Origin: Funiculus sociatus GB2-C1
GTDB taxonomy: Bacteria > Cyanobacteriota > Cyanobacteriia > Cyanobacteriales > FACHB-T130
Assembly (NCBI RefSeq): GCF_039962115.1
Contig: NZ_JAMPKJ010000009.1
Location: 62,001-126,000, forward strand
Direction of reading: 5' to 3'
DNA length: 64,000 nucleotides
Within the stretch, counting starts at the first letter, position 1; the number at the start of each line of letters is the position of its first letter. The notes beneath the pieces were generated by a model that searched no databases, was not told the DNA's origin, and was given only the letters and a program-made list of their open reading frames with translations. This document shows positions 13,413 to 31,901 of this stretch, in pieces. Position numbers and translations under genes: made by a program.

Positions 13413-13484
13413 TGGGTCGCCCGGGATTCGAACCCGGAACTATTCGGTTAAAAGCCGAGTACTCTACCGTTGAGTTAGCGACCC
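13413..13484 (-). tRNA. tRNA-Lys (anticodon UUU)
   Basis: On the minus strand a complete 72-nt cloverleaf is present: acceptor stem GGGTCGC/GCGACCC with discriminator A, anticodon arm with loop CTTTTAA (anticodon TTT), and a T arm ending GGTTCGAATCC. The CCA end is not encoded. It stands between the aldolase promoter region and the aldose-epimerase-like gene. Confidence 0.97.
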
Positions 13485-28293: not shown

Positions 28294-29618
28294 TTAGCAA
28301 AAACATAAAGCTTGACCGCGGACTTCTGTATTAAGTTTTCCTCGGTCGTAAACAACCTGACCGCCGACAATAGTCACACCAGTCCAGGCAGTGAGGTTCC
28401 ACCCTTACAAGGGGTTCCAACCACATTTGGTAAGTAATTCCTCGAGCAAAACAGGACGGTAACTGTTCAAATCAACAAAGATTAAATCGGCATCATAACC
28501 AGGAGAGATCGCGCCTTTTTTTTTGGGAATATTATAAGCTTGGGCTACAGCCGCAGACATCCAGTTAGAAACTTGGACAACACTACAACGTCCCTGCATA
28601 GCAGAAGTTAACATCAGCGGTAGAGATGTTTCAACACCAGGCATTCTCGAAGGAGTATTGGGGTAGACTTGGGCTTTTTCTTCCAAAGTCTGGAAAGCAT
28701 GATCGGTAGCGATAAAATCAATTACACCATTGAGAAGAGCTTGCCAGAGAACTTCGTTGTCATGAAGCGATCGCAAAGGCGGATTCACCTGCGCCAGTGT
28801 GCCAATTTTTTCATAAGCGCTAGTGTTTAGCAGCAAATGTTGCGGTGTTACTTCCGCAGTCACCCAACTCGGTTTATCCTGACGCAGTAACTGGGCTTCC
28901 TCAGCTGTAGACATATGCAAAATATGTAACCTTCGCTGGTATTTTTTAGAAAGATTTAACGCCAGTTGCGTAGCATTAAGGGCAGCTTGATTATCCTGAA
29001 TTTGGGAGTGGATTGCCGGATTGTTGATCCCGGCAAATTCCTGACGACGTTGATTAATTCGGGCTTGATCTTCAGCGTGAACCGCAATTAAGCGATCGCC
29101 TTGTGCAAAAATGGACTCCAGCGCCGTATCCTGTTCTACCAACAACTGACCGTGCATCGATCCCATAAAAATTGTAATTCCAGGAGTCGGATGCGCCTCT
29201 AAAAGATCCAGCAAAATTTCCGCCGTTGCCCCAATAAAAAAGCCATAATTAACTAAGCACTTTTCTTGCGCCCGCCGCAGCTTGTCATCCAAAGCCGCCT
29301 GCGTAGTTGTCAGAGGGCGAGTATTAGGCATCTCCAGAAATGACGTTACCCCTCCTGGGCACAAGTGCAACTCGCAGTAAACAAGTCTTCTTTGTGTTCC
29401 AACCCCGGTTCCCGGAAATGTACCTGCGGATCAAGAACTCCCGGCAACAAAGTCAGACCCGAACCGTCTATTTCTTTACCAGAGTCATCTCTTGGGATTT
29501 CTGACGCAACCTGGACAATTTCCCCGCCACGAGTTTCGACATCCCCAATTAAAAACTCACCATTGGGCAGAAGAATGTTAGCGTTGCGGATAAACAGAGG
29601 AGCATGGCAATCAGTGGT
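28294..29618 (-). pseudogene. Dihydroorotase (DHOase) pseudogene
   Basis: On the minus strand the sequence codes for a nearly complete dihydroorotase, the enzyme that closes carbamoyl-aspartate to dihydroorotate. It is broken in several places. Residues LFIRNANILLP and DPQVHFREPGLEHKEDL are read to about 29353, where a one-base loss shifts the frame into GGVTSFLEMPNTRP. Further on, a TAA (28405) sits where the family reads Phe-Glu-Gly-Trp, yet the frame continues to 28294 with a normal C-terminus. No ATG, GTG or TTG is in frame before LFIRNAN. The expected carboxylated Lys of KIFMGS is Thr (TIFMGS). The four lesions together argue for a true pseudogene rather than a sequencing error. Confidence 0.85.
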
Positions 29619-29859: not shown

Positions 29860-30456
29860 ATGACTGACGTGCAGAATCAAGAACCAGACAGCAAAACCCA
29901 ACAACAAGTTGAAAATCCCTTTATAGAGGGAATTAAAACGATTGGGCTTAGCGCCATTTTAGCCTTTGGAATTCGCTCTTTTGTAGCAGAAGCACGCTAC
30001 ATCCCTTCCGGATCGATGCTACCAACGCTACAAATCAATGACCGTCTGATTATAGACAAGGTTAGTTACAAGTTTACCTCTCCAGAACGGGGAGACATTG
30101 TAGTATTTAATCCCACCGAAGCCCTAGAAAAGCAAAATTTCCACGATGCCTTCATTAAGCGGGTGATTGGTATACCGGGAGACAAGGTAGAGGTGAAAGG
30201 GGGACGAGTTTATGTCAACGATCAAGCCTTGCGGGAAAAATATATAGACGAACAGCCTAATTACCGTTATGGCCCAGTGAAGGTGCCACCTAACGCTTAT
30301 TTGGTACTTGGTGATAATCGCAACAACAGCTATGATAGCCATTACTGGGGTTTTGTCCCCCGCGACAAGATAATTGGTCGGGCGATAGTACGTTTCTGGC
30401 CTTTGAATCGCGCCGGAGAAGTGGATCAGTCTCCAGTTGATTCCTCGGATAAGTGA
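29860..30456 (+). CDS. lepB: Signal peptidase I
   Basis: LepB removes signal peptides from exported proteins at the membrane. The 198-residue protein has one N-terminal membrane helix ([16 protein letters not shown], about 28-43), the catalytic Ser52 in [11 protein letters not shown], and the general-base Lys100 in [11 protein letters not shown]. Box E ([19 protein letters not shown]) with conserved Gly-Asp-Asn lies near 150-160. The length matches the single-helix bacterial and plastid type. The ATG at 29860 follows an AT-rich promoter region; the gene runs against the dihydroorotase pseudogene. An array of short palindromes follows its stop. Confidence 0.95.
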
Positions 30457-30638: not shown

Positions 30639-31901
30639 TTAGCCGTGACTCCAATTTTGGACGACGCGACCCTGCAACTGTTGACCTAGCCAGGGAGTGT
30701 TGAGTGAGAGGGATTTGAGGTTTTGCCTCTCGACTTTCCAAGTTAGTTGGGGGTCAAATAAAATAATTTCAGCGAGTTGACCAGCTGCGATCGCAGCTGG
30801 TTTTTGTTGTAAACACTGGGCGGGACGGGTACTCAAAACCCGCCACAGTTCTAAAGAACTCCAGTCGCCATTCTCGACCAGGATGTGCCAAAGTAGCGGC
30901 AAAGCTAACTCTAAACCAATCGCGCCTGCTGGTGCTTCGGCGAAGGCGACGGTTTTTTCTTCGTAAGTGTAGGGAGTGTGGTCAATAGCGATCGCATCAA
31001 GTACCCCACTCCGCACACCCTCAATTAATGCTGCTTGGTCAGATGGGTTGCCCAGAGGTGGTTCCAGACGTAAAGAAGGATTATAACTCCCCACATCCTC
31101 AGCATTCAGCAGCAAGTGCATCCAAGTGGTACTCGCCGTTATTGGCAAACCCCGCGCCTTAGCATCCTGAATTAGCTTAACGCTGCGACCTGTAGAAACG
31201 CGCATGATGTGGACGGTCGTGCCAGTGGATTCTACCACTTCCAACAAAGCAGCCAGAGCAGATGTTTCCGCGATCGCGGGATTTCCTGGCAAACCAAAAC
31301 GAATTGAAGCCGCACCTTCTCGCATCACCCCATTGGTAGAAAGATGGCGATCGCAAGCCCACAAAGCCACTGGTTTTCCTAGAGGCTGAAGATATTCCAA
31401 AATTCTTCGCAGCAGCGCCAAATTCGATATCGGCTTACCATCAGCAAAACCCACCACTCCAGCCGCTGCAAGTTCTGCCAACTCTGTCATTTGCTGGCCT
31501 TGCACACCCAAAGTTAAAGCACCCCAAAATCCAATTTTCGATTGTGGATTTCGGATTGTGGATTGTTGAAGATAAGCTAAACCAGCTGGGTTATCGATAG
31601 CTGGCAATGTGTCCGGCAAAATTGTCAACCGGGTAAAGCCTCCAGCCGCCCCCGCGGAAACAAGCGTTACTAAGGTTTCCCGTTCTTCAAACCCAGGTTC
31701 ACCGGAGTGGCTGTATAAATCCACCAGTCCTGGCCCCAGCACCAATCCACGACAATCCCGCACCGATGTTTCTGCGGGATTTGCAGAAATTTGAGTTTCG
31801 ATTGCTTTTATGTAACCATCCGCAATCAGAACATCGGCAATCTGGTCAGTTCCAGAAACAGGATCTATTACCCTTACTTGTTGAAGTAGTTCACTATTCA
31901 T
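30639..31901 (-). CDS. Dihydroorotase-like amidohydrolase with altered metal site
   Basis: The 420-residue protein aligns along its length with dihydroorotases, which act after PyrB in pyrimidine synthesis. The first metal-binding motif, normally D-x-H-x-H-x-R, reads DLYSHSGEP, so one His and the Arg are absent. Other parts of the barrel are kept: PIDNPAGLAYL, HIMRVSTGRSV, ITASTTWMHLLL and AIAIDHTPYTYEEK. This form may be catalytically impaired or act as a partner of PyrB; I recall similar forms in other cyanobacteria. A repeat-derived STIRNPQSKIG stretch (about residues 112-122) is inserted. The start at 31901 gives a typical N-terminus. Confidence 0.85.
   Translation of the reverse strand: MNSELLQQVRVIDPVSGTDQIADVLIADGYIKAIETQISANPAETSVRDCRGLVLGPGLVDLYSHSGEPGFEERETLVTLVSAGAAGGFTRLTILPDTLPAIDNPAGLAYLQQSTIRNPQSKIGFWGALTLGVQGQQMTELAELAAAGVVGFADGKPISNLALLRRILEYLQPLGKPVALWACDRHLSTNGVMREGAASIRFGLPGNPAIAETSALAALLEVVESTGTTVHIMRVSTGRSVKLIQDAKARGLPITASTTWMHLLLNAEDVGSYNPSLRLEPPLGNPSDQAALIEGVRSGVLDAIAIDHTPYTYEEKTVAFAEAPAGAIGLELALPLLWHILVENGDWSSLELWRVLSTRPAQCLQQKPAAIAAGQLAEIILFDPQLTWKVERQNLKSLSLNTPWLGQQLQGRVVQNWSHG
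31526..31567 (-). repeat. Repeat-like GGATT tract inside the dihydroorotase-like gene
   Basis: GGATTTCGGATTGTGGATTG and its neighbours form repeats of 7 to 10 bp. They encode the Ser-Thr-Ile-Arg-Asn-Pro-Gln-Ser segment and resemble the ATCCAAAATCC repeats seen in spacers of this window (for example 12090 and 17990). Confidence 0.7.

Follow-up and report, generated by a model that had tools for sequence, protein, structure and literature searches.

A decayed PRK07575-type dihydroorotase gene in Funiculus sociatus and its probable replacement by a mobile class II enzyme

Dihydroorotase is essential for de novo pyrimidine synthesis. In Funiculus sociatus GB2-C1 (G000), the stretch of DNA analyzed here (64,000 nucleotides, hereafter the window) carries a heavily damaged dihydroorotase gene on the minus strand at 28294–29605, which raises the question of what replaces it and how it became dispensable. 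An earlier note, made from the letters of the window, held that several lesions disable the gene and expected another enzyme elsewhere in the genome. Both statements were borne out, the first by the sequence itself and by a sister genome in which the gene is also broken, the second by an intact class II dihydroorotase gene on another contig.

The remnant belongs to the PRK07575 type, the ancestral cyanobacterial pyrC. It scores 620.7 bits with the family model NF005751 against a cut-off of 529, which rules out chance by far, but the match is split over two frames and contains an internal TAA. Homology to the enzyme is full-length, with approximately 79% identity to the intact protein of a relative (G006). 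The lesions were placed by alignment with relatives and with the sister genome (G001). In the start region (29602–29605) the conserved N-terminus, LFIRNANILLPNGE, has no in-frame start codon, as the earlier note had observed; an ATG does exist at 29605–29603, in another frame, with an extra C directly behind it. This extra C is common to both strains, while an 11-bp deletion in the same region is private to G000. A one-base frameshift, previously put near 29353, lies at about 29356–29355, where G000 reads CCCAGGAGGGG and the sister genome CCAAGGGAGGG; the missing base is private to G000. Also private is the TAA already reported at 28405 (28407–28405), which stands for GAA (Glu; relatives read FEGW) and behind which the reading frame continues through the C-terminus until another stop, at 28296–28294. 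Together, the out-of-frame ATG, the frameshift and the internal TAA mean that no single open frame runs from an in-frame start codon through to the C-terminus, and the longest remaining frame has 321 codons (28405–29370).

Catalytic motifs are lost as well. The conserved lysine of GIKIFMGS is threonine (ACA, 29175–29173), in agreement with the earlier note, and TTC CAG (Phe-Gln) at 28695–28690 in place of Pro-His turns DHAPHT into DHAFQT. The lysine and DHAPHT are both missing from G000 and both present in G001. SGMPG has additionally become SRMPG in G000. Intact PRK07575 proteins (e.g. L095) have glutamine for the first histidine of the metal motif, reading DPQVHFRE against HVH in class I enzymes such as 3MPG; the relative 2GWN likewise has glutamine at this place.

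The search for an intact dihydroorotase in the rest of the genome led to contig C102 (G000:C102:129–1181), which encodes a class II (E. coli-type) protein of 350 amino acids. It scores 525.9 bits with the TIGR00856 HMM (cut-off 292.95), keeps the metal-ligand motifs of the family (HxH, Lys and a DSAPH-type motif), and aligns over its whole length with class II enzymes of solved structure, including 4LFY and the E. coli PyrC entries (1J79, 1XGE) over 340 residues. It differs from the solved enzymes in that the cyanobacterial version travels as a mobile single-gene block. The same gene and neighbors occur in G001, so C102 is not contamination. The protein is predicted to be a working dihydroorotase; functional statements here rest on family membership and distribution. 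Two other candidates in the genome were rejected: a 447-amino acid relative on C21 was classified as a dihydropyrimidinase (TIGR02033, 570 bits), the match on C85 as nagA-like.

The distribution of the two types was surveyed in 292 genomes of the phylum, PRK07575 being called at E≤1e-80. The class II gene is present in 57 genomes and PRK07575 in 83, and the two exclude each other. Only three genomes, from three different families, have both (G000, G198 and G252), and PRK07575 is broken in each; in G285 the class II gene is accompanied by a shredded PRK07575 remnant. A recognizable PRK07575 was found in four class II genomes from three families, always broken, and an intact one in none of the 57. 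Fisher's test puts p for the exclusivity at about 1e-35; with family f26 removed, to which 35 of the 57 class II genomes belong, it is 1e-19. Because genomes are not independent, these values serve only to illustrate it. Three genera (g5, g12 and g40) each include species with only the one type and species with only the other. The rule has unexplained gaps, since three nearly complete genomes possess no intact dihydroorotase of either type: G132 and G246 (L100 and L102) have neither gene, and G186 (L091) lacks the class II gene and has its PRK07575 broken. The remaining amidohydrolases found in these genomes comprise urease, deaminases, nagA and a PRK07369 protein without the motifs, and no other one is a dihydroorotase by family. 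An assembly gap, auxotrophy or an unknown dihydroorotase may account for these genomes.

A decayed PRK07575 gene, an intact mobile class II gene and their mutual exclusivity point to a xenologous replacement caught in mid-decay. It is highly probable that the class II enzyme replaced PRK07575. Somewhat more broadly, and still very probably, the best explanation of the data is that PRK07575 was left as a wreck and replaced after horizontal gain of a class II gene, whose block moved as cassette or plasmid cargo. The class II gene now on C102 would first have been gained by horizontal transfer. A frameshift just behind the PRK07575 start codon would next have been fixed before the two strains split, and independent neutral decay would have followed in each. 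PRK07575 would have become dispensable because the lineage had acquired a class II dihydroorotase, whose arrival would have preceded the loss. The vehicle would be a single-gene block of approximately 1.1 kb, an integron-type cassette in some cyanobacteria and carried by plasmids in others. A recurrent, phylum-wide replacement by way of a mobile gene block lay beyond what the earlier note could see.

Mobility of the class II gene is evident from its divergence. Between G000 and G063, which belong to different families, class II dS is 0.20, and between G000 and G198 it is 0.29, compared with 0.265 between G000 and G001 of one species. PRK07369, a gene next to the remnant, is saturated between families and has a dS of 0.10 within the species. 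Class II proteins are approximately 96% identical across families whose PRK07369 proteins share 63–71%. The shared DNA is limited to about 1.05–1.15 kb around the gene, and the flanks are mostly unrelated. Outside the cyanobacteria, the nearest relatives of the protein are in Burkholderiales (66–70% identity). The gene lies on plasmids in three Nostoc strains, one of the plasmids being typed as conjugative. In G252 it is found beside transposases on a 58.9-kb contig (G252:C3) with a tyrosine recombinase and an actin-like segregation-type gene, suggesting that this contig is a plasmid. No class II gene was found in viral contigs, and viral carriage was rejected. With very little doubt, the class II gene has moved by horizontal transfer. 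The class II pyrC is present twice, on separate contigs, in two genomes, Nostoc foliaceum FACHB-393 (NZ_JACJTD010000047.1 and NZ_JACJTD010000082.1; L138, L143) and Kaiparowitsia implicata (L125, L130).

Cyanobacteria are known to contain integrons and attC sites (PMC2426708, PMC8352920, PMC8618304); attC models have been described (PMC8352920) and integron gene cassettes reviewed (PMC8618304). An attC-like site lies directly upstream of the class II gene in G000. The first covariance model (R1) included this site and is circular for it; a leave-one-out model (R2) recovers it with 43.7 bits (E 2e-8). With R1, three sites were found in the whole 6.47-Mb genome, the best two on C102. Sites of this kind also flank the class II gene, on one side or on both, at L119, L121, L122, L124, L125 and L130. 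L119 has four of them in one orientation, with pyrC among the cassettes, and at one of its sites the bottom strand folds (z −3.2) into R and L stems, with a central spacer and bulges on one side only. The bottom strand of the G000 site folds no better than shuffles (z +0.4). At L119, L125 and L130 one attC-like site ends at most about 40 bases from the ATG and a second attC-like sequence lies behind the gene, and at L114 and L124 the conserved upstream sequence starts at the TTAGC core. Downstream of the gene in G000, no attC was recognized in the 128 bases remaining on the contig. A complete IntI exceeds the cut-off in G295 and G297, both of which carry the class II gene, and integron-type integrase relics lie near it in G000, G001, G009 and G063; relics are all that was found in the two strains of this species, with no complete IntI in G000.

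The class II block resembles integron cassettes in its single gene with an attC-like site, in the L119 array, and in the integrases or relics of the host genomes. It differs from the usual cassettes in that the cargo is an essential housekeeping enzyme displacing a chromosomal version, and in that G000 has no complete IntI. An integron cassette is likely to be one vehicle of the gene, and IntI may have mediated its insertion. Since most class II loci outside a handful show no attC, cassettes may be just one among several means of delivery. The strongest competing explanation accepts the replacement but has plasmids, transposons or homologous recombination move the gene past attC-like sites that are bystanders. 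It agrees with the plasmid locations, the flanking transposases and the many loci without attC, but we consider it unlikely because at L119 the gene sits within a regular same-strand attC array, because at L119, L125 and L130 one site ends so near the ATG and another comes after the gene, and because conservation at L114 and L124 begins at the core. Delivery of the class II gene by cassette or plasmid is well supported but not proven. Many relatives have a TATAAT-like box about ten bases before the class II ATG, which might allow the block to be expressed on its own; this is a suggestion only, as the promoter scan did not flag the box at its threshold.

The related-strain check proposed in the earlier note gave an intact PRK07575 in G006 and an orthologue broken at other positions in G001, the only other genome of the species compared, which was independently assembled. 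G001 carries a different frameshift, near codon 140, as well as two CAA-to-TAA changes, and its catalytic motifs are intact. The extra base after the ATG is the only disabling lesion common to both strains, and from this division into shared and private lesions an ancestral frameshift followed by independent decay in each strain may be inferred. Between the strains PRK07575 has 50 nonsynonymous and 24 synonymous differences (dN/dS 0.645), compared with a dN/dS of 0.123 for PRK07369, 0.031 for a signal peptidase-like gene and 0.067 for the class II gene. The 50:24 ratio differs from that of the neighbors (p=1.6e-6) and not clearly from neutrality (p=0.07). Codon conservation relative to G006 is still high, so the decay is recent. 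Lesions that differ between related strains and the loss of purifying selection make it virtually certain that 28294–29605 is a true pseudogene, and in comparison with functional PRK07575 enzymes the gene is a pseudogene in both strains, with the lysine and DHAPHT gone in G000.

It is very improbable that translation of the remnant continues, through frameshifting or to give a shortened protein, in the service of a new non-catalytic role. A 321-codon frame persists in G000, and over the long term silent divergence from relatives much exceeds amino acid divergence, but the recent dN/dS is near neutral. Furthermore, the frame of G001 is interrupted elsewhere, by its two TAA codons and its frameshift, so the two strains have no product in common.

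The surroundings of the pseudogene preserve the ancestral locus, which is marked by an intact gene for a PRK07369-type pseudo-dihydroorotase (30639–31901, minus strand; NF005614, 678 bits). A signal peptidase I-like gene under purifying selection (29860–30456, plus strand; dN/dS 0.03) lies between it and PRK07575 in the ancestral order, the same order as in G006. In G198 the PRK07575 remnant likewise adjoins PRK07369, in the ancestral position, as does the intact gene of G006. Because PRK07369 is a dihydroorotase by family annotation and is located next door, the activity might be sought in this protein rather than in class II PyrC. This is highly improbable. In all cyanobacterial sequences examined its metal-ligand motifs are lost (QVHFRE has become LYSHSGE, VHAED has become ACDR and similar, and HMST has become RVST). 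Moreover, PRK07369 is present in 118 of the 292 genomes, irrespective of their dihydroorotase type, and therefore cannot account for the loss of PRK07575 in just those genomes that have class II. Proteobacteria have multiple PyrC paralogues, including PyrC' and Zur-regulated ones, some without zinc ligands (PMC2770081); in work cited there, PyrC' of Pseudomonas is a structural partner of aspartate transcarbamoylase. PRK07369 is like PyrC' in missing the zinc ligands. The proteobacterial paralogues are kept together, whereas the two catalytic types described here exclude each other and one decays. A zinc-sparing paralogue of the Zur type (PMC2770081) was rejected as the main explanation, as the class II protein keeps its metal-ligand motifs and replaces another enzyme.

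The remaining two explanations deny either the transfer or the lesions. Both enzymes might be ancestral and differentially lost by vertical descent with no recent transfer, as their wide occurrence in the phylum would allow, but this has hardly any probability given a class II dS that is lower between families than within the species while PRK07369 shows the reverse, the mixture of types among species of g5, g12 and g40, and computed trees that already point to incongruence between class II and species phylogenies. Sequencing or assembly errors in an intact gene, for which the proximity of two lesions to homopolymers (GGAGGGG, and the TTTGAA to TTGTAA region) might speak, are the least credible and are rejected because a second, independent assembly is broken by different lesions, the motif substitutions and raised dN/dS are unlike error patterns, and the genes next door are clean; corrected reads that restore the frame are very unlikely.

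Non-orthologous displacement is a known process. What the present case would add is an essential enzyme that travels in cassettes or on plasmids and takes the place of a chromosomal gene whose wreckage can still be seen. A literature search, which mostly lay outside subscription journals and is weak evidence, returned no description of this replacement or of a cyanobacterial dihydroorotase cassette. Replacement of an essential gene by one of another class is usually seen only afterwards. Here a single phylum displays all stages: the old gene only, the new gene with a freshly broken old one, the new gene with a shredded remnant, and the new gene only. We lean toward the view that an essential housekeeping enzyme circulates among cyanobacteria in integron cassettes and on plasmids and has repeatedly ousted the resident dihydroorotase of another class, and that a plasmid-borne copy, apparently that of G252, makes its plasmid indispensable once the chromosomal gene is lost. 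This suggests that core biosynthetic enzymes, and not accessory and resistance genes alone, can travel on integron cassettes and plasmids, and that such a replacement can render a plasmid essential. For annotation, cyanobacterial PRK07575 and class II PyrC should be treated as alternative dihydroorotases, and PRK07369 as a dihydroorotase by family that is without the metal-ligand motifs.

Several minor observations concern the surroundings of the two genes. The sole Rfam match in the window is a tRNA gene at 13413–13484 on the minus strand. In both strains (L086:3221–3456 on G000:C102, and the corresponding site on G001:C19) an N-terminal integron-type integrase relic is fused to a 71-bp piece of the class II gene (approximately 91% identical), with the intact class II gene 2 kb away. 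Between the strains (L086 and L088) the class II block is 93% identical and a neighboring block 97%. Beside the class II gene G000 has a LuxR-type gene (L086:1237–2002), which is truncated in the sister strain, where a methyltransferase-like gene is found instead (L088:3722–4696). Cassettes may possibly have been exchanged between the strains at this place.
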